From assembly GCF_021495345.1 (NCBI RefSeq), contig NZ_CP099397.1, forward strand, positions 3,906,001-3,970,000: a stretch of DNA of 64,000 bases, written 5' to 3'. Origin of the DNA: Pseudomonas hydrolytica. Lineage in GTDB: Bacteria; Pseudomonadota; Gammaproteobacteria; Pseudomonadales; Pseudomonadaceae. The notes below the pieces were generated by a model. It did not search any database and was not told where the DNA came from. It saw only the letters and a list, made by a program, of their open reading frames with translations. A program made the position numbers and the translations under genes. Positions 17,239-26,039 of this stretch are shown in pieces (within the stretch, counting starts at the first letter, position 1; each line of letters starts with the position of its first letter).

Positions 17239-18011
17239 TGGTCGTAACCCGGCATCTGCTGATCCAGCTTGCGCAGCAATGCCGGCCAGGGCAGCGCACC
17301 ACCCATGCCCTGCGGCGATTTCATCACCCCGGCGATCATCGCCCGCGCACCATCGAGGATCTGCTGGGGGATGTGGATCAGCTCGCCGCCGCCACTTTGC
17401 GCCATGACCTGGATCTCGCAGGCCCGCTGCAGGGTGAACATGCCGAGGAAGGCATCGGCGATGCTGCCGAAGGCGGTCAGCAGCCCATGGTTAGGCAGGA
17501 TCATGAAGTTCTTCTCGCCCAGGTCGGCCTGCAGTCGCGCCTTCTCGTCATGGTTCAGCGCCACGCCTTCGTAACCGTGGTAGGCCAGGCTGGCGAGGAC
17601 GAACAGCGACTGCTGCGACAGCGGCAGCAGGCCCTGCTTCTGCGCCGAAACCGCGATGCCGGCCGGGGTGTGGATGTGCAGCACGCAGCCGACGTCGTGA
17701 CGGACCTCATGCACGGCGCTGTGGATGGTGTAACCGGCCGGGTTGAGGTCGAACGGGCTGTCCATCAGCTTGTTGCCGGCCAGGTCGACCTTGACCAGGC
17801 TCGAGGCGGTGATTTCATGGAACATCAGCCCGTATGGGTTGATGAGAAAGTCCTCGGTGCCCGGCACCTTGGCGGAGATATGGGTGAAGATCAGATCGTC
17901 CCAGCCATACAGGGCGATCAGTCGGTAGCAGGCCGCCAGGTCGACGCGCGTGCGCCATTCGGCCTCGGACACCTGGTTCTTCACGGCAGGAAGTTTCAGC
18001 GGAGCATTCAC
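17235..18011 (-). CDS. class II aldolase/adducin family protein
   Basis: A 258-residue zinc-type class II aldolase/adducin domain protein. The first metal-site region is LHIHTPAGIAVSA and the second is MILPNHGLLTAFG; YGWDDLIFTHISAK is the N-terminal signature. No ATG fits; the best start is GTG at 18011 with GAGGTGA about eight bases upstream. It heads an operon with the alpha/beta hydrolase and DUF1569 protein. The real substrate of this subgroup is unknown. Confidence 0.85.
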   Translation of the reverse strand: MNAPLKLPAVKNQVSEAEWRTRVDLAACYRLIALYGWDDLIFTHISAKVPGTEDFLINPYGLMFHEITASSLVKVDLAGNKLMDSPFDLNPAGYTIHSAVHEVRHDVGCVLHIHTPAGIAVSAQKQGLLPLSQQSLFVLASLAYHGYEGVALNHDEKARLQADLGEKNFMILPNHGLLTAFGSIADAFLGMFTLQRACEIQVMAQSGGGELIHIPQQILDGARAMIAGVMKSPQGMGGALPWPALLRKLDQQMPGYDQ

Positions 18012-18175
18012 GGCGGTCACCTCGATCTTCTTGTTGGTCGGTGGTGAGCGCAGTCTAGCCGGGCACATGCCAGGCGCTAGTTGCCCTGGCAGCCATCTTG
18101 ATGGCTTTGCGGGACAACGCGCCGGGGGACGTGGCGCGATAGCCGAGCATTCGCCATCCTGATCGAGCCAGTGCT

Positions 18176-18643
18176 TCAGATCAGTTCGGCGTGCTCGCTC
18201 AGCAGGCGCGGCCACAGGGCCTGCGCCTGCGCATCGTCGGCGAACAGACGGAAGCCCTCGAACTGAAACTCCGGCGCCACGGTGCAGCCCACCAGGCTGT
18301 AGCTGCCCGTGCAGCGCGCAGCCTGCCAGGCATGTGCCGGTACGGCGCGTTGCGGCAGCTGCCCGGCAGCGACCGGACCCAGCAGCTCGCGCCGCAGGCT
18401 CTCGGGCGATTCGGCCACCAGCAGCTCCAGGGGATCGCCTTCATGAAAATGCCAGAGTTCGTCGGCATCGACCCGATGCCAGCGGCTGACCGCCCCGGCC
18501 GGCAGCAGGAAGAGGATGGCGCTGGACGCCGCCCTGCCCCGCGCGTCGCGCTGCGCGGACACGAACAAGCGCCGGTAGAAGCCGCCCTCGGGATGCGCCT
18601 GAAGTTCCAGGCTATCGATCAGCTGGCGGGCGCGTGGGTGCAT
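18176..18643 (-). CDS. cupin, DUF985 family
   Basis: A 155-residue single cupin domain. The family start LIDSLELQAHPEGGFYRR is present, followed by SRWHRVDADELWHFHEGDPLELL, which supplies metal-binding His and Glu, and a second motif SLVGCTVAPEFQFEGF. Ligand unknown. It begins one base after the flavodoxin gene's stop, so they form an operon. Confidence 0.85.
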   Translation of the reverse strand: MHPRARQLIDSLELQAHPEGGFYRRLFVSAQRDARGRAASSAILFLLPAGAVSRWHRVDADELWHFHEGDPLELLVAESPESLRRELLGPVAAGQLPQRAVPAHAWQAARCTGSYSLVGCTVAPEFQFEGFRLFADDAQAQALWPRLLSEHAELI

Positions 18644-18644
18644 G

Positions 18645-19094
18645 TCAGCCCCTCAGCGCCGCGGCGAAGGTCTGCAGCCAGGGCTCGGCATCGCTCTCGG
18701 GGGTGACCGTCTCGCTGGAATCCAGACGCAGCATCGGCACCACCTCGCGCAGCCCCAGTTCGGCATACAGCTCGCGAATCAGCTCGCCGCCGCCGCAGAA
18801 GGTGTCGTAACTGGAGTCGCCCAGCGCCAGCACCGCTGCCGGCAGCCCGTGCCAGGCCGGCAGACGGTCGCGAATGGCGCAGTACAGCGGCATCAGGTTG
18901 TCCGGCAGCTCGCCCATGCCGGTGGTGGAGGTCACGGTGAGGAAGGCATCGGGGGCGAAGGCCAGCAGATCGTCGAGGCTCATGTTCGACTTGTGCCAGG
19001 CGTCCAGCCCGGCGGCCTTGAGCTGGCGCCCGGCGTGACGCGCGACTTCTTCGGCCGTGCCGTAGACCGAACCCGAGAGAATGGCGACTTTCAT
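18645..19094 (-). CDS. flavodoxin (MioC-type)
   Basis: FMN-binding electron carrier of 149 residues. The phosphate loop SGSVYGTAEEVARH and the isoalloxazine loops STTGMGELPDN and LGDSSYDTFCGGGE are all intact. GGAG lies upstream of ATG at 19094. In P. aeruginosa the corresponding flavodoxin (PA3435) sits near folM-folE-folX, as here. It is divergent from the LOV photoreceptor, with 102 bases between. Confidence 0.88.
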   Translation of the reverse strand: MKVAILSGSVYGTAEEVARHAGRQLKAAGLDAWHKSNMSLDDLLAFAPDAFLTVTSTTGMGELPDNLMPLYCAIRDRLPAWHGLPAAVLALGDSSYDTFCGGGELIRELYAELGLREVVPMLRLDSSETVTPESDAEPWLQTFAAALRG

Positions 19095-19196
19095 GACAAC
19101 TCCGGAAACAGGAAAAACGCCGCGCATTATGCCGCAAGTGGACAGCCCGACCCGATGTTTTAGAATGCAGCGCACATCTCTCGCGGAATCGCATCC

Positions 19197-19643
19197 ATGA
19201 TCAATGCCAAGCTGCTGCAACTGGTAGTCGACGCCTCCAACGACGGAATCGTGGTGGCCGAGCAGGAGGGCGAAGACAACATCCTGATCTACGCCAACGC
19301 GGCATTCGAACGCCTGACCGGCTATCCCTGCGACGATATCCTCTATCAGGACTGCCGTTTCCTGCAGGGCAACGATCGTGCGCAGATCGGCCTGCAGGCC
19401 ATCCGCGACGCGGTCAAGGCGCACAAGCCGTGCCGCCAGATCATCCGCAACTACCGCAAGGACGGCAGCGCCTTCTGGAACGAACTGTCGATCACCCCGG
19501 TGCTCAACGAGAGCGACCAGCTGACCTACTACATCGGCATTCAGAAGGACGTCACCGAACAGGTGGAAGCCCAGCAACGCGTGCGCGAGCTGGAAGCCGA
19601 AGTGGCGGAGCTGAAAGCCGAGCTGGCACGCCTGAAAAACTGA
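19197..19643 (+). CDS. short LOV blue-light photoreceptor
   Basis: A 148-residue LOV-only protein, the size of P. putida PpSB1-LOV and PpSB2-LOV. The flavin-adduct motif is QDCRFLQG, with Cys53 at the same position as the photoactive Cys of PpSB1-LOV. Other FMN contacts appear in NYRKDGSAFWNELSITPV and YYIGIQKDVTEQ. The C-terminal helix (QRVRELEAEVAELKAELARLK) is a clear coiled coil for dimerisation. There is no output domain, so it must act through a partner, most likely the nearby LitR/PplR-type regulator. GGAA upstream of ATG is a weak ribosome site. Confidence 0.92.
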   Translation: MINAKLLQLVVDASNDGIVVAEQEGEDNILIYANAAFERLTGYPCDDILYQDCRFLQGNDRAQIGLQAIRDAVKAHKPCRQIIRNYRKDGSAFWNELSITPVLNESDQLTYYIGIQKDVTEQVEAQQRVRELEAEVAELKAELARLKN

Positions 19644-19708
19644 CGAACGTACAAAACTATCGCAGCGGCTGATGGTCTGAAGGGTTTGCACTCCATGCAG
19701 TACCCATC

Positions 19709-20317
19709 ATGCAAAGCGACCCGCTGCTGACCCAAGACGAGCTGGACTTCATCCAGCAACTGCTTTCCCAAACAACGCGCCAGCACCACCGCAGCGCTCC
19801 TTCGGAGCTGGCCATCGGTGAACGCCTGAGCGAGCTGCTCAGTCGCCTGGGCGATGAAAAGCAGCTGAGCCTGGACACCCACAGCGACGACGAGCACCTG
19901 AGCTTCCCGCTACGCCTGATTCAGGACGACCAGCGGCATTCACGCCTGGAGCTGGGCGCCCCGCTCATCTTCGAGAACGGCGTCAACGAACGCCCCTGGC
20001 GCCTGACCCTGTCCAGCCCGCTGCCACTGCTCGACAGCGCCGAGCGCCCCAGTGGTTTGCAGGCCGTGGAACTGTCCAACAATGGCATGCTGGTGCAGTA
20101 CGGCAAATCCGGCAGCCCGGCCAAGGATCAGCTGCTGCAACTGATCCTGCCGCAGCAGCGCCGCGTACAGCTGCGCGCAAGGTTGGTCAGACGCGTGAGT
20201 CAGAGCCACTACGCCTACAGCCTGCAGACGTTGCACAGCGAAGACGAGCAGACGCTGCGCCAGTACCTCTTCGACGAGCACAGCAACCGCCAGCGCGAGC
20301 CCGAAGCGGTCGGCTGA
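19709..20317 (+). CDS. PilZ-like protein with degenerate c-di-GMP motif
   Basis: A 202-residue protein. The first 100 residues have no recognisable domain. The second half resembles PilZ: ERPWRLTLSS, then AVELSNNGMLVQYG in place of the (D/N)xSxxG motif, then RVQLRARLVRRVSQSHYAYSLQ. The RxxxR element is reduced to RxxR and the acidic residue is Glu, so c-di-GMP binding is doubtful. It lies between the LOV and LitR-type genes. No strong ribosome site precedes the ATG, so the start is uncertain. Confidence 0.55.
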   Translation: MQSDPLLTQDELDFIQQLLSQTTRQHHRSAPSELAIGERLSELLSRLGDEKQLSLDTHSDDEHLSFPLRLIQDDQRHSRLELGAPLIFENGVNERPWRLTLSSPLPLLDSAERPSGLQAVELSNNGMLVQYGKSGSPAKDQLLQLILPQQRRVQLRARLVRRVSQSHYAYSLQTLHSEDEQTLRQYLFDEHSNRQREPEAVG

Positions 20318-20334
20318 ACGGCTACTTCGCCTTA

Positions 20335-21288
20335 TCAGGTATCGAGATGACCGGCGAGGAACTGCTGCAGACGCCGCTGCATGAGCCGCCCCTCATTGCC
20401 CAGGCATGCGATGGGCGAGCCGGCCAGGCTTTCCTCGGCCAGGTCGGCGCTATCCCCCGCCAATAGCAACGGACACTCCAGCGCGAGCGCCAGACGCGAC
20501 AGCTGACGCGGGAAGTCTTCGGCCGGCGGCTGGTTGCTGAACAGCACCAGCGCCTGCGGCTGCATGCGCTCGCACACCAGCGGCAGATCGCTCAGCGGCA
20601 CCCCGGGCCCCATCACGCTCACTTCGATGTCCTGAGTGCTCAGCATCAGCGCCGCGACCAGCAGTTCCAGCTCGCGACAGTGTCCGGGCTGGGCCGCCAG
20701 CAGCACCCGCTCACCCGACTCGCCCCGCCCCAGCTGCAGGCGCTGCCAGCAGCGGCCGCGCAGAAAACCGTCGAGCAGTACCCATTCGCTGCGCTGGCCG
20801 ACCTCGTCCTGGCGCAGCAACAGCTCCTGCCAGATCGGCATCAGGATGTCCTGAAACACCACCGGCAGCGGGTAGCAGGAGAATATCTGGCCATACAGCC
20901 GCTCCAGACGCGCCTCGTCGAAACTGTCCAGCGCGCGGCGGATCTGCGCCTGCCACTGGCTCCAGTCATCGCTGCTGACCTCGTTGTAGGCCGGGGTGAC
21001 GGCGCTGCGACTGCTGGCGCTCTTGGCCAGGATCGAGCCCACCTTGCTCACCGCAACACCGCGCTCTATCCAGGCCAGGATGCTGCGCACGGCATCGATG
21101 TCGGCCTGCGAATAGAGCCGATGCCCGCTGTCGGTGCGGGTCGGCTGGATCAGCCCGTAACGCCGCTCCCAGGCGCGCAGGGTGACCGGGTTCACGCCCG
21201 TTAGACGAGAGACCTCGCGAATGGGGAACAGCTCCTCCTGCTTCAGGGCGCTGGACGCAAGTGATGTAACACCGGCGGGTTCGGACAT
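20335..21288 (-). CDS. MerR-type regulator, LitR/PplR class (no cobalamin motif)
   Basis: A 317-residue regulator. Residues about 21-90 form a MerR DNA-binding domain (FPIREVSRLTGVNPVTLRAWERRYGLIQPTR, GHRLYSQADID). The rest follows the B12-binding LitR/CarH fold (PIWQELLLRQDEVGQRSEWVLLDGFLR, AAQPGHCRELELLVAALML) but lacks the DxHxxG cobalamin ligand. Published work on P. putida describes such LitR proteins (PplR1-3) that work with short LOV proteins to induce genes including folE in light. The adjacent LOV gene and the downstream folE operon match that pattern. ATG at 21300 is an alternative start; neither has a clear ribosome site. Confidence 0.85.
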   Translation of the reverse strand: MSEPAGVTSLASSALKQEELFPIREVSRLTGVNPVTLRAWERRYGLIQPTRTDSGHRLYSQADIDAVRSILAWIERGVAVSKVGSILAKSASSRSAVTPAYNEVSSDDWSQWQAQIRRALDSFDEARLERLYGQIFSCYPLPVVFQDILMPIWQELLLRQDEVGQRSEWVLLDGFLRGRCWQRLQLGRGESGERVLLAAQPGHCRELELLVAALMLSTQDIEVSVMGPGVPLSDLPLVCERMQPQALVLFSNQPPAEDFPRQLSRLALALECPLLLAGDSADLAEESLAGSPIACLGNEGRLMQRRLQQFLAGHLDT

Positions 21289-21615
21289 GGCTTCAGGCAT
21301 CGCGCAAGAAAATTCAGGAAGGGAGTGTAACTCAGTCGCGATAGGCGCACATGGCGCATCGGGCACCAGCCCCGCCGTCCTGGCCGAATGGCGGCGAGCG
21401 AAGGGGGCTCCGTGCACCTCATCCGTCCTTCTCCTGCACCGTCCGGGTGCAGTCCGGCGGCGCAACGATGCGTTGCCTGCCCGTCATCGCGCGGCACTGG
21501 CTAATTTGCGCAAAACCGGAATAATCCTTGCTGCATTTTTGTCGGGCACAACACCCCGTGCCCGATCACGCCTGTCGCCACACCCGGCCCAGGGCAATGT
21601 TCGAGGAGATACACA
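21289..21615. other. 327-bp divergent intergenic region, LitR-type gene / ABM gene
   Basis: Holds the promoters of both divergent genes but I cannot place a convincing pair of -35/-10 boxes. No TGTACA-type site is present here. An AT-richer stretch near 21500-21545 is the likeliest promoter region. No gene seen. Confidence 0.4.
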
Positions 21616-22182
21616 ATGTCCCCCGTTACTCTCATGGTGGCGCGCCGCGTCGCCAGTGGCCGTTATCACGACTTCATCGCCTGGCTGCGTGAAGGTGAAC
21701 ACCTGGCCACCGACTTCCCCGGCTATCTCGGCTCCGGCGTGCTGGCACCGCCAGCTGGCGATGACGAATTTCAGATCGTCTTCCGCTTCAGCGACGAGCA
21801 GACCATGGCCGCCTGGGAGCATTCGGCCTCGCGCAAGGCCTGGCTCGAGCGCGGCGCCGGGCTGTTCGCCCAGCCGCAGGAAAGACGTGCCGTCGGCCTC
21901 GACGCCTGGTTCGGCAGCGTTCACAAGCAACCGCCGCGCTGGAAGCAGAGCGTGGCGATCTGGCTGGCGTTCTTCCCGGTCTCGCTGGCCTTCAACCTGT
22001 TGTTCGGCCCCTGGCTCACCGACCTGTCGCTGGTCACCCGCGTGCTGCTGTCCACGCTCGCACTGACGCCGCTGATGACCTACCTGTTCATCCCCCTGTC
22101 CACTCGCCTGCTCGAGCCGTGGCTGCAGGGCTCTTCGTCCCACCGCCTGGGCAGACGCCCGGCCAGCATCGGCAAATCCTGA
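21616..22182 (+). CDS. membrane protein with antibiotic-biosynthesis-monooxygenase domain
   Basis: A 188-residue protein. Residues 1-100 form an ABM ferredoxin-like domain (VTLMVARRVASGRYHDFIAWL, FPGYLGSGVL, FQIVFRFSDEQTMAAWEHS). The C-terminal part has two membrane spans (about 113-135 and 142-162). This fusion is common in Pseudomonas but the activity is unknown. A strong GAGGAG ribosome site precedes ATG and a terminator follows. It is divergent from the LitR-type regulator, which may control it. Confidence 0.82.
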   Translation: MSPVTLMVARRVASGRYHDFIAWLREGEHLATDFPGYLGSGVLAPPAGDDEFQIVFRFSDEQTMAAWEHSASRKAWLERGAGLFAQPQERRAVGLDAWFGSVHKQPPRWKQSVAIWLAFFPVSLAFNLLFGPWLTDLSLVTRVLLSTLALTPLMTYLFIPLSTRLLEPWLQGSSSHRLGRRPASIGKS

Positions 22183-22198
22183 CCCTGCCGTCTTCCGC

Positions 22199-22225
22199 AA
22201 AGGCCAGCCTCGCGCTGGCCTTTTT
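22199..22225 (+). terminator. terminator after the ABM gene
   Basis: Stem AAAGGCCAGC (22199-22208), loop CTCGC, GCTGGCCTTT (22214-22223) running into a T tract. Good intrinsic terminator. Confidence 0.9.
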
Positions 22226-22246
22226 AGTTCGCCGCCACTCCATACC

Positions 22247-22270
22247 TGTACACAACATATGGATCGTACA
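22247..22270 (+). promoter_or_regulatory. candidate PplR/LitR binding site upstream of folM-folE-folX
   Basis: TGTACA (22247-22252), twelve bases, then CGTACA (22265-22270). As I recall, the P. putida PplR1 site is T(G/A)TACA-N12-TGTA(C/T)A; this differs at one base. Further GTAC cores lie at 22277 and in a TGTACA at 22380-22385. The 22226-22497 gap is AT-richer than its surroundings and otherwise holds no convincing gene. Its 80-codon open frame is not supported. Confidence 0.6.
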
Positions 22271-22497
22271 GCCAAAGTACAAAAATACGTCCAGCAGAGA
22301 AATCATGGAAAGTCCTTTGAAGTCAGTGAAATAGCCAATTTCACTCGCCTCTCCTGGAAAACCATATGTTTCCCATGGTTGTACAACCCGCAGCTCTGGT
22401 ATAGCTTTATCCTCGGTCTGGTGAGTGCCGCCTGCCACTGGTCAGGTATCCCGAGGCGGTACAAGCCAGGCCTTCATTTTCTTTGCACGAGTCGCCC

Positions 22498-23208
22498 ATG
22501 AGCGCTGCCAGCTTTCCCGTCCTGATCACCGGCGCCGGCCAGAGGGTCGGCCTGTACTGCGCCGAGCGCCTGCTCGACGAGGGCCAACCGGTGATCGTCA
22601 GCTATCGCCAGGAGCGCGACAGCATTGCGCGCCTGCGTGAGCGCGGTGCCATTGCCGTGCAGGCGGACTTCGGCGCCGAGGCTGGCATCCTCGCCTTCAT
22701 CGACCAGATCAAGGCGCAGTGCAGCGGCCTGCGCGCGATCGTGCACAACGCCTCGCAGTGGCTGGCCGAAACGCCGGGCGAAGAGGCCGAGGCCTTCCGC
22801 CAGCTGTTCGCCGTGCACATGCTCGCGCCCTACCTGATCAACCTGCACTGCAGCGACCTGCTGCTGCAGTCGCAGCGCGCCGACATCGTCCACGTCAGCG
22901 ACGACGTGGTGCGCAAGGGCAGCGCCAATCGTCCGGCCTACTGCGCCAGCAAGGCCGGGCTGGAAAGCCTGACGCTTTCCTTCGCCGCCCGCCTGGCGCC
23001 ACGCATCAAGGTCAACGCCATCGCTCCAGCGCTGCTGATGTTCAACGCGGGCGATGACGAGGCCTACAGGAGCAAGACCTTGGCCAAGTCGGCGCTGGGC
23101 ATAGAACCCGGCCCGCAAGCCTTTTACCAGAGTTTGCGCTACCTGCTGGACAACCCCTACGTAACCGGAACGACCCTTACCCTCAACGGCGGCCGCCACC
23201 TCAAGTGA
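22498..23208 (+). CDS. folM: dihydromonapterin reductase (SDR)
   Basis: A 236-residue short-chain dehydrogenase that reduces dihydromonapterin to tetrahydromonapterin with NADPH. The cofactor motif is TGAGQRVG, the NASQW segment replaces NNAG as in FolM, the catalytic YCASK is present, and [12 protein letters not shown] follows. In Pseudomonas tetrahydromonapterin is the cofactor of phenylalanine hydroxylase. ATG at 22498 is chosen over an upstream TTG because homologous sequence starts here. It heads a folM-folE-folX operon, 22 bases before folE. Confidence 0.88.
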
Positions 23209-23230
23209 GGCGACTGCCCAGGACACTGCC

Positions 23231-23791
23231 ATGAGCCATCCTCTTTCCCAGCATTACCGCGAGATTCTTGTCGGCCTCGGTGAAAACCCCGAGCGTGAAG
23301 GCCTGCTCGATACGCCCAAGCGGGCGGCCAAGGCCATGCAGTACCTCTGTCATGGTTATCAGCAGTCGCTGGAGGAAATCGTCGGCGGTGCCCTGTTCGA
23401 GTCCGACAACGACGAGATGGTGATCGTCAAGGACATCGAGCTGTATTCGCTGTGCGAGCATCACCTGCTGCCCTTCATCGGCAAGGCGCATGTCGCCTAT
23501 ATCCCGACCGGCAAGGTACTCGGGCTGTCGAAGGTGGCGCGCATCGTCGACATGTACGCGCGGCGCCTGCAGATCCAGGAGAACCTCACCAAGCAGATAG
23601 CCGACGCCATCGCCCGCGTCACCAACGCCGCCGGCGTGGCCGTGGTGATCGAGGCCAAGCACATGTGCATGATGATGCGCGGGGTGGAGAAGCAGAACTC
23701 GGTGATGAGCAGCTCGGTGATGCTTGGCGCCTTCCGCGAGTCCTGCAACACTCGCCATGAATTCCTGCAATTGATCGGACGGAACAACTAA
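23231..23791 (+). CDS. folE: GTP cyclohydrolase I
   Basis: Zinc enzyme converting GTP to dihydroneopterin triphosphate, the first pterin step. The 186-residue chain carries the zinc ligands in [20 protein letters not shown] and a later Cys in [15 protein letters not shown], plus the GTP-binding [27 protein letters not shown] region. In P. aeruginosa the homologue in this context is folE1. In P. putida a folE gene is light-inducible through LOV and PplR proteins. Its stop overlaps the folX start (TAATG). Confidence 0.96.
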
Positions 23792-24162
23792 TGCCGCGAC
23801 TGGAACCCGGAATGGCGCGCATCCGCGTCAAGGACCTGCGCCTGCGCACCTACATCGGCATCAAGGAAGAGGAGATCAACAACAAGCAGGACGTGTTGAT
23901 CAACCTGACCATTCTCTATCCGGCAGTGGACGCGGTGCAGGTCAACGACATCGACCACGCCCTGAACTATCGCACCATCACCAAGGCGATCATCGCCCAC
24001 GTCGAGGGCAACCGCTTCGCCCTGCTCGAACGCCTGACCCAGGAAATCCTCGACCTGATCATGGCCCATCAGGCCGTGCGTTACGCCGAGGTGGAGGTGG
24101 ACAAGCCGCACGCCCTGCGCTTCGCCGAGTCGGTGTCGATCACCCTCGCCGGTCATCGCTGA
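23791..24162 (+). CDS. folX: dihydroneopterin triphosphate 2'-epimerase
   Basis: A 123-residue T-fold enzyme that epimerises dihydroneopterin triphosphate toward monapterin. It is related to the aldolase Fol[30 protein letters not shown], then [30 protein letters not shown] and [17 protein letters not shown]. The operon with folM and folE identifies it as FolX rather than FolB. Start overlaps the folE stop by one base. Confidence 0.92.
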
Positions 24163-24237
24163 GGCCATGCTGCGGCGGCTTGCCGCTCTCCGGCGAGGCT
24201 CTTATCATCGCCGCCATCCATCCCCGGAGAGCCCAGC

Positions 24238-24531
24238 ATGACCGAGCAAGAACGCCTCGAACTGGAAGCCGCAGCCTTTCGCGCCCTGGTGCAGCACCTG
24301 CGCACACGCCCCGACGTGCAGAACATTGACCTGATGAACCTGGCCGGTTTCTGCCGCAACTGCCTGTCCAAATGGTACAAGGCCGCCGCGGACGACCTCG
24401 GCGTCGAGGTCAGCGCCGACCAGGCCCGCGAGACCGTGTATGGCATGCCCTATGCCGACTGGAAGGCCAAGTATCAGAAGGAAGCCACGGCCGAGCAGAA
24501 GGCCGCATTCGAAAAAGGAAAGCCTGAATGA
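24238..24531 (+). CDS. DUF1244 family protein
   Basis: A 97-residue small helical protein with the DUF1244 signature VQHLRTRPDVQNIDLMNLAGFCRNCLSKWYKAAAD and YGMPYADWKAKYQ. The Cys pair in FCRNC is conserved in the family. Function unknown. It overlaps the next gene as ATGA and follows the pterin operon, as in other Pseudomonas. Confidence 0.88.
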   Translation: MTEQERLELEAAAFRALVQHLRTRPDVQNIDLMNLAGFCRNCLSKWYKAAADDLGVEVSADQARETVYGMPYADWKAKYQKEATAEQKAAFEKGKPE

Positions 24532-24869
24532 CCGCCCTCGACGAACTGCGCAGCCGTCTGCAGCAGGACGATTACGCCTTCAGCGAAACCCTGGCCTTCG
24601 TCGCCGAGCACTACGACTATCAGCCCAGCGCCTTCCGTAACGGTGACGTGGAGAACGCCGCCGGACAGAACGAAGGCTCCTGCAAGACCCTGGGCCTGGC
24701 CCTGCTGGAGGGCTTGAGCACGGACGAAGCGCTGCGCGCCTTCGGCGAACACTACCGCAGCGTGTTGGCCACACCGCAGGGCAGCGACCACGGCAATATC
24801 CGCGCGCTGATGAGCCATGGCCTGGAAGGCCTGAAATTCGAGCAGGAACCGCTCAAGCGCAAGGCTTGA
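24528..24869 (+). CDS. HopJ-type (type III effector HopJ family) protein
   Basis: A 113-residue protein matching the HopJ family: FSETLAFVAEHYDYQPSAFRNGD, ENAAGQNEGSCKTLGLAL and FGEHYRSVLATPQGSDHGNIRAL. The family was named from plant-pathogen effectors but is widespread in free-living bacteria, so it is probably not an effector here. Translationally coupled to the DUF1244 gene. Confidence 0.85.
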   Translation: MTALDELRSRLQQDDYAFSETLAFVAEHYDYQPSAFRNGDVENAAGQNEGSCKTLGLALLEGLSTDEALRAFGEHYRSVLATPQGSDHGNIRALMSHGLEGLKFEQEPLKRKA

Positions 24870-25031
24870 GCGAATAGCGCAAAAACCTGCGCAACTGTCG
24901 GCAAAAGCTGACAGACATCACATTGCAATCACTTTATGCTGCGCGCCATCACAACTGATGGAACACGAGGGACCGTGTTCTGCGCGCAGCCGCCCTTCCC
25001 TCCTGTTTCGCGATCGGCATGGAGTCGCCCG

Positions 25032-25619
25032 ATGCAGCAGACCTTGGTATGGAAACCTTGGTACACCCCCGGCGTGGAAACCCTGCGCCTCAGTCAGGAT
25101 GCCAGTGGCATCCACGCCACCAGCCACCTGATGCAGGTGATCAAGGGCAACAGCATCGTCGCCAACTACCTGATCGACTGCGACGCGCGCTGGCGCTTCC
25201 GCCGCCTCTGGCTCAAGGTCGACAACCATGGCCAGCGCAGCCTTTGCCTGCAGCGCGACCTGCGTGGCAACTGGGTGCTCAACGGCCAGCCGCGCAGCGA
25301 CCTGCAGCAGTGCCAGCACGTCATGCTCTCGGCTTCCCCGTTCACCCACACCCCGCCGCTGCAACGCAGCGCCCTGGAAACCGGGCAAAGCGACGAAATG
25401 AAGGTCGCCTACATCGACATGCTCAGCCTCAGGGTCGAGGTACGCAGTCAGCGCTACCACTGCCTGCGCCGACGTCCGGGTGAAAGCCTCTACCGCAGCC
25501 AGGCCGAGGATCATGCCAGCGAAGAACTGAGCGTGGACGACCAGGCCCTGCTGCTCAAGGCCAACGAACGGTTTCTGCGCCTGAGCCAGCGCGAGCTGAC
25601 GGTCAGCGCGCTGGTGTAG
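25032..25619 (+). CDS. putative glycolipid-binding domain protein
   Basis: A 195-residue beta-rich protein like the putative glycolipid-binding family (DUF1089): WYTPGVETLRLSQDASGIHATSHLM, NYLIDCDARWRFRRLWLKV, DLRGNWVLNGQP and a C-terminal YHCLRRRPGESLYRSQ. ATG at 25032 has GGAG directly upstream; the longer frame is not homologous. Function unknown. Confidence 0.75.
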   Translation: MQQTLVWKPWYTPGVETLRLSQDASGIHATSHLMQVIKGNSIVANYLIDCDARWRFRRLWLKVDNHGQRSLCLQRDLRGNWVLNGQPRSDLQQCQHVMLSASPFTHTPPLQRSALETGQSDEMKVAYIDMLSLRVEVRSQRYHCLRRRPGESLYRSQAEDHASEELSVDDQALLLKANERFLRLSQRELTVSALV

Positions 25620-25632
25620 CTGCCAGTCTGCC

Positions 25633-25687
25633 GGTGCGCACGGCGCACCCTACAGGGCAGCCCTACGTAGGGTGTGCCGTGGGCACC
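25633..25687. repeat. inverted pair of GTAGGGTGCGCC-type repeats, copies 2 and 3
   Basis: GGTGCGCACGGCGCACCCTA at 25633-25652 faces GTAGGGTGTGCCGTGGGCAC starting at 25667. Together they form a potential long hairpin between convergent genes. Confidence 0.7.
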
Positions 25688-25709
25688 AGGCGCAGCAGAA
25701 CCACGCCTC

Positions 25710-26039
25710 TCAGATCGGCAGTTGGCCGAACGCCCAGCGCAGCAGGAAGAACACCAGCAACCCGCCACCGATGGTCGCCAGCAGGTGCCGTGTGAACGCG
25801 GCGATGGCGATGGCAGCCAGGCCCGCCAGCAGGTAGGCGTTGTTCCAGTTCAGCGCCCAGCTCTGCCCGTCCGGCAGCAACATGCCCGGCACCACGATGG
25901 CCGTCAGCACCGCCGTGGGCACGTAGTGCAGCCCTTGCCTGACCAGGGGAGGGAAACGCAGATCGGGAAAGGCGAACAGGCTGTAGCGCGTGGCAAAGGT
26001 GATCGCCAGCATGCCGAGAATCAGCAACCAGATATCCAT
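25710..26039 (-). CDS. azlD: AzlD family branched-chain amino acid transport protein
   Basis: A 109-residue membrane protein with about three to four spans, starting MDIWLLILGMLAITFATRYS as in AzlD. It pairs with AzlC to export branched-chain amino acids or analogues. Start overlaps the azlC stop by one base (TGATG), so the two are coupled. Confidence 0.88.
   Translation of the reverse strand: MDIWLLILGMLAITFATRYSLFAFPDLRFPPLVRQGLHYVPTAVLTAIVVPGMLLPDGQSWALNWNNAYLLAGLAAIAIAAFTRHLLATIGGGLLVFFLLRWAFGQLPI

Follow-up and report, generated by a model that had tools for sequence, protein, structure and literature searches.

Probable light control of pterin genes by a short LOV protein and a class II LitR regulator in Pseudomonas hydrolytica, beside a PilZ-like gene without the c-di-GMP signature

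The window analyzed here is a 64,000-nucleotide stretch of the Pseudomonas hydrolytica genome (contig NZ_CP099397.1, positions 3,906,001 to 3,970,000 of the forward strand), and its positions 19197-24162 hold genes for a short LOV blue-light photoreceptor, a PilZ-like protein, a LitR-type regulator, an ABM-domain protein and the pterin enzymes FolM, FolE and FolX. We consider it very probable that this locus is the orthologue of the PmSB-LOV/PmlR2 region of Pseudomonas mendocina, with anti-repression of LitR by the LOV protein controlling the fol genes and the PilZ-like protein standing apart. LOV/LitR light control of fol genes is not new, having been published before for the P. mendocina orthologue. 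What our sequence comparisons newly suggest is a PilZ-like gene that belongs to the pterin neighborhood, a linkage of folE with LitR, a second operator-like site before folM and a candidate site before a chemoreceptor gene. A preliminary description made from the DNA letters had listed the same gene set, with convergent LOV and LitR-type genes and the PilZ-like gene between them; all of these genes were found at their places, and coordinates and strands confirm that the LOV and PilZ-like genes converge with the LitR gene.

In P. mendocina NBRC 14162, the orthologous region comprises PmSB-LOV, PME15565, PmlR2, PME15555 and folM-folE-folX (Maruyama et al. 2022, PMC9758184), matching the present locus in gene content and order, and passages of that paper describe the pmlR2, PME15565 and pmSB-LOV trio as conserved in Pseudomonas. 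The LOV protein has 148 amino acids with Cys53 and the LitR protein 321 amino acids in both, whereas calculated masses are 16.80 and 35.62 kDa here and 16.68 and 35.82 kDa as published; the proteins are near relatives and differ in sequence. For these orthologues, others have demonstrated flavin mononucleotide (FMN) binding and a blue-light photocycle of PmSB-LOV, binding of the illuminated protein to the N-terminal domain of PmlR2 with inhibition of DNA binding and relief of repression in vitro, binding of PmlR2 to the folM promoter region, and induction by light of folM (2.4-2.5 fold) and folE (1.6-3.3 fold) (PMC9758184). We infer the same behavior for the present strain. P. putida KT2440 offers a further parallel, with PplR1-3 and PpSB1/PpSB2-LOV as class II LitR and short LOV proteins that jointly control light-induced genes including a folE (PMC9758184, PMC8508746); the preliminary description had named this system, in agreement with the introduction of the former paper and a passage of the latter, and had left P. 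mendocina unmentioned. Unlike the three regulators and two LOV proteins of KT2440, one LOV protein and one LitR of this type were over threshold genome-wide here, together with a pmlR1-like gene at about C1:4.20 Mb.

The LOV gene (19197-19643, plus strand; PAS_9, 77 bits) encodes a single PAS domain and no effector domain. As the preliminary description had read, its Cys53 sits in QDCRFLQG; the short LOV assignment is further borne out by an end-to-end alignment of residues 1-147 with the solved short LOV protein 7r5n, its best solved relative. The class II LitR gene (20335-21300, minus strand, ATG at 21300), the pmlR2 orthologue, encodes an N-terminal MerR helix-turn-helix (MerR_1, PF13411, 55.8 bits). 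The cobalamin-ligand motif of related regulators is DxHxxG/ExHxxG, and neither D.H..G nor E.H..G occurs anywhere in the 321 residues. It is very hard to believe, then, that this regulator senses light itself through cobalamin in the way of CarH and leaves the LOV protein unneeded, although it has a CarH-type architecture (a NCBIfam CarH match of 105 bits, below the cut-off of 400) and aligns with Thermus CarH over residues 16-252. Where Thermus CarH has the motif ERHEIG, the aligned residues here are HCRELE, so that pattern scan and alignment both bear out the earlier statement that the cobalamin motif is lacking, and passages of PMC9758184 state that the PplR-dependent light response of P. 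putida needs no B12. PF02607 (B12-binding_2) gave no match in LitR at E<=1, though the CarH alignment runs through that region; a domain of this type is reported for PmlR2 (PMC9758184). The protein thus shares with CarH and class I LitR the MerR head and a related middle region and differs from them in lacking the ligand motif, light sensing being apparently handed to a separate LOV protein.

The three fol genes lie on the plus strand: folM, dihydromonapterin reductase (22498-23208; NCBIfam PRK06483, 345.4 bits, cut-off 249), folE, GTP cyclohydrolase I (23231-23791; TIGR00063, 253.8 bits, cut-off 181.6), and folX, dihydroneopterin triphosphate 2'-epimerase (23791-24162; NCBIfam PRK11245, 201.8 bits, cut-off 152). 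With a gap of 22 bp between folM and folE and an overlap of 1 bp between folE and folX they form one apparent unit, as a tetrahydromonapterin operon should. Two putative LitR-type sites on the plus strand, absent from the preliminary description, precede folM; sites are sequence matches to T(G/A)TACA-N12-TGTA(C/T)A, and each of these two has one mismatch. The proximal site TGTACA-N12-GGTATA (22380-22403) is the published folM site of P. mendocina at the published distance, 95 bp upstream of folM (PMC9758184), with the folM ATG here at 22498. The distal one, TGTACA-N12-CGTACA, lies at 22247-22270, making two folM sites here versus one given for P. mendocina in that source. Conservation of the sites was assessed in the best 80 of 315 loci encoding a relative of the PilZ-like protein, or rather in the 76 of them with folM at >=60% identity (L055, L057, L062 and L065 were left out). 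Sites with one mismatch or none preceded folM in 23 of the 76 loci, against 0.06 expected in base shuffles. In the close loci (L013-L032, n=20) the proximal site is kept in all 20 and a distal site in 18.

Comparison of gene order, which the preliminary description had proposed as a check, revealed near-constant gene content in the 80 related loci, and the order is therefore kept far beyond chance. LitR and a flavodoxin gene were present in 80/80, LOV in 78/80, ABM, folM and DUF1244 in 76/80 each, folX in 74/80 (L033 and L034 end before folX) and folE in 72/80; the LOV and LitR genes are convergent in 78/80. The flavodoxin gene (18645-19094, minus strand; NCBIfam PRK05723, 277.5 bits, cut-off 204), also outside the earlier gene list, lies upstream of LOV as the constant left neighbor, and a DUF1244 gene 3' of folX (24238-24531) is the constant right neighbor. 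Two loci, L057 (Pseudomonas sp. 6D_7.1_Bac1) and L062 (P. brassicacearum 48H11), keep the flavodoxin gene, the PilZ-like gene and LitR, but LOV, ABM and the fol genes are absent from the locus, which makes a LitR without LOV neighbor.

A wider view came from a sample of 69 genomes of the family (LOV at E<=1e-38, PilZ-like protein at E<=1e-10), in which folM was found in 67 genomes, LOV in 41, this LitR type in 37 and the PilZ-like gene in 20. In 36 of the 37 genomes with this LitR, LOV is no more than 4 kb from it. The gene folE stands within 3 kb of folM in 21/21 genomes having LitR within 6 kb of folM and in 19/46 elsewhere (Fisher p 1.4e-6, a value that ignores kinship, genomes of one genus being mostly alike). 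When only genomes with the PilZ-like gene are counted, folE neighbors folM in 8/9 that have LOV next to the PilZ-like gene and in 0/11 of the others. This distribution fits a functional link of folE to light control, but four of the 76 loci that carry LitR and folM (L037, L067, L073, L075) lack folE. One genome, G031, has a LitR-folE-folX-LOV island (L115, C21:187200-199640) apart from its PilZ-like-folM locus (L106), which has folX-like pieces of its own.

Several observations weigh against LOV/LitR control of the fol genes. A folM site at one mismatch or fewer was found in just 3 of the 56 more distant loci, and control of folM through the operator is therefore supported by sequence in the close group only. 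Of the 46 genomes without LitR close to folM, 19 still have folE next to folM. According to passages of PMC9758184, induction of folM and folE (1.6-3.3 fold) is modest beside that of phrB and ufaM (25-33 fold), mutants could not be made in P. mendocina, and gel shift gave a stable LOV-LitR-DNA complex at odds with the BIAcore result. One could regard the PilZ-like and fol genes as mere old neighbors of the light switch, whose shared place says nothing on fol regulation in this strain; most distant loci lack a recognizable folM site, and LOV lies elsewhere in nine of the 20 genomes with the PilZ-like gene. This seems improbable in view of the published folM site kept in every close locus and of the PmlR2 binding and light induction reported for P. 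mendocina.

Under the favored LOV/LitR control, the class II LitR repressor would occupy TGTACA-type operators in the dark, including those before folM. Blue light would generate a Cys53-FMN adduct in the short LOV protein, and the lit protein would bind the DNA-binding domain of LitR and free the promoters. As a result, folM-folE-folX and other light genes of the rudS/phrB type would be expressed and the supply of pterin, probably tetrahydromonapterin, would rise. The parts of this switch, the operator-like sites and the synteny are observed in the genomes compared here.

The PilZ-like gene (19709-20317, plus strand; 202 amino acids; PF07238, 33 bits, cut-off 22.5) follows a different pattern. 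Of the 20 genomes that have it, 18 carry it at most 6 kb from folM; in G014 the distance is about 11 kb, and G007 has no folM above the threshold. LOV is at most 3 kb away in nine of the 20, elsewhere in nine and absent in two. Nine stretches (L104-L112), taken from the 11 genomes in which the gene stands apart from LOV, were compared: in eight the gene is located 5' of folM-folX on the same strand, directly in six and via ABM in two, with folE between in none, and in L104 only flavodoxin adjoins it. These comparisons indicate that the PilZ-like gene is part of a pterin/flavodoxin neighborhood rather than of the light switch, and its place between LOV and LitR would therefore be one arrangement among several. 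Much of this association can be put down to common ancestry of the gene order, and it is no proof of joint function. The DUF1244 gene 3' of folX also occurs in 7/8 loci having LOV-LitR elsewhere.

An AlphaFold2 model and structure comparison show a PilZ fold over residues 92-198, in line with the Pfam match over its cut-off. Residues 1-91 are unmatched by the structure aligner; on the question of a YcgR-type N-terminal domain, the structure-comparison rows cover residues 92-198. PilZ receptors of cyclic di-GMP (c-di-GMP) carry the signature RxxxR plus [D/N]xSxxG. The combined RxxxR...[D/N]xSxxG signature occurs in 0/94 homologues of the PilZ-like protein, in which respect, as in its unmatched residues 1-91, the protein is unlike the YcgR/MrkH/FlgZ-type PilZ proteins. 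The place of RxxxR holds an invariant R95-P-W-R98, and the [D/N] position of the second motif is E in 89 and Q in one of 90 pattern-aligned homologues and, judged by eye, E or Q in the other four. As a control, the signature is clear in six and loose in one of 11 other PilZ places found in the same genome with PF07238, a list that is incomplete because that search missed the PilZ-like gene of the window itself.

The preliminary description had suggested that light may meet c-di-GMP signaling through this gene. In its explicit form, the PilZ-like protein would bind c-di-GMP and modulate LOV or LitR as a two-input gate. A PilZ domain over the Pfam cut-off, a clear PilZ fold and the position of the gene between LOV and LitR in this group speak for such a gate, and there are precedents in passages of the literature: the PilZ protein TssZ binds the transcription regulator HinK (PMC10912698), and in Agrobacterium pterins control c-di-GMP by another route, via PruA, PruR and DcpA (PMC13259868). 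Yet the signature is missing from all 94 homologues and clear or loose in seven of the 11 other PilZ places, and the gene follows the flavodoxin/folM neighborhood more than LOV-LitR, even occurring in two genomes without LOV. We therefore consider the gate a poor candidate. Of the earlier proposal that light sensing is tied to tetrahydromonapterin synthesis, control of folM-folE-folX by LOV and class II LitR is supported, as published for the P. mendocina orthologue, and the c-di-GMP input through the PilZ-like gene is not. A pterin/c-di-GMP link of another kind may still exist, since the Agrobacterium PruA/PruR/DcpA route is known.

The PilZ-like protein is unlikely to sense c-di-GMP; its most likely role is that of an adaptor that binds another protein, free of c-di-GMP control. 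There is a precedent: a TssZ mutant unable to bind c-di-GMP still binds HinK and keeps it off DNA, according to passages of PMC10912698. Residues 6-16, LLTQDELDFIQ, hardly vary although the rest of the protein changes fast, and they resemble the N-terminus LLSQDEIDALL of FliM of the same genome (L094). A DNA pattern of this peptide matched three genome places and none in the reversed control, one being FliM and one, by look, inside a Clp-type ATPase gene. No FliM homology is claimed, because helices often begin in this way and the model confidence for this region is about 50. A speculative thought, which we would rather doubt than endorse, is that a c-di-GMP-blind adaptor of the pterin locus could act as a third component of the switch where LOV-LitR has joined that locus, for example by docking LitR or a Fol enzyme through LLTQDELDFIQ; LOV-LitR and folE would in that case have entered the folM-folX locus as one module and brought the supply of pterins under light control. 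The main text of PMC9758184 mentions neither PilZ nor c-di-GMP and does not call PME15565 a PilZ protein, and a literature search on PilZ, LOV, blue light and Pseudomonas returned no paper on the gene, as judged from titles and abstract starts.

Beyond the locus, the exact site pattern occurs at four places in the whole genome, versus one for the reversed control. Two of the four form a P6650-type promoter, with core TTGACT-N16-TATGAT, before a 2-thiouracil desulfurase/DUF1722 (RudS-type) gene, again like P. mendocina in core and paired sites; RudS genes are stated in a passage of PMC11417400 to sit in LitR-controlled operons. A third precedes a flavin amine-oxidoreductase-type gene. A perfect site TGTACA-N12-TGTACA outside the window (C1:1543398-1543421; L009:1501-1524) stops some 95 bp short of a CHASE3-HAMP-MCP chemoreceptor gene, itself adjoined by an acetyl-CoA synthetase-like gene, and this putative site may place the chemoreceptor under light control. 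Among relatives, L141 (G076 C1, site C1:1032389) also has a perfect site beside an acetyl-CoA synthetase-like gene, preceding a short membrane-protein reading frame and, by look, an EAL-like one, and L134 (G074 C90:104087) has a perfect site before a membrane protein of chemoreceptor look.

The ABM gene (21616-22182, plus strand; PF03992, 30.3 bits, cut-off 23.1), whose product has a C-terminal part that reads as hydrophobic, is the equivalent of PME15555 by position. It is followed by a terminator-like hairpin with a short T run (22199-22223, plus strand; fold of 22184-22236, -18.8 kcal/mol, z -2.24), another feature outside the preliminary description. A consensus scan listed no promoter before folM, nor this hairpin among its terminators, and Rfam gave nothing above threshold in 18000-26000. 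Sites with one mismatch or fewer were found in 2 of 76 LitR-ABM gaps and none in the flavodoxin-LOV gap of the 76 loci scanned. We set ABM aside as a light-induced gene; because the hairpin separates it from folM and sites occur in so few LitR-ABM gaps, it is probably a separate unit outside the light-controlled genes.

With these findings, a light switch already described in print gains a further genome and a family-wide context, in which conserved operator-like sites, together with the folE-LitR linkage, appear to couple the supply of pterins to blue light. The question of c-di-GMP is replaced by that of an adaptor, posed by a PilZ-like gene that is conserved in the pterin locus and has no c-di-GMP signature. 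Remaining interest attaches to this gene, to how folE is linked with LitR and to the candidate site before the chemoreceptor gene.

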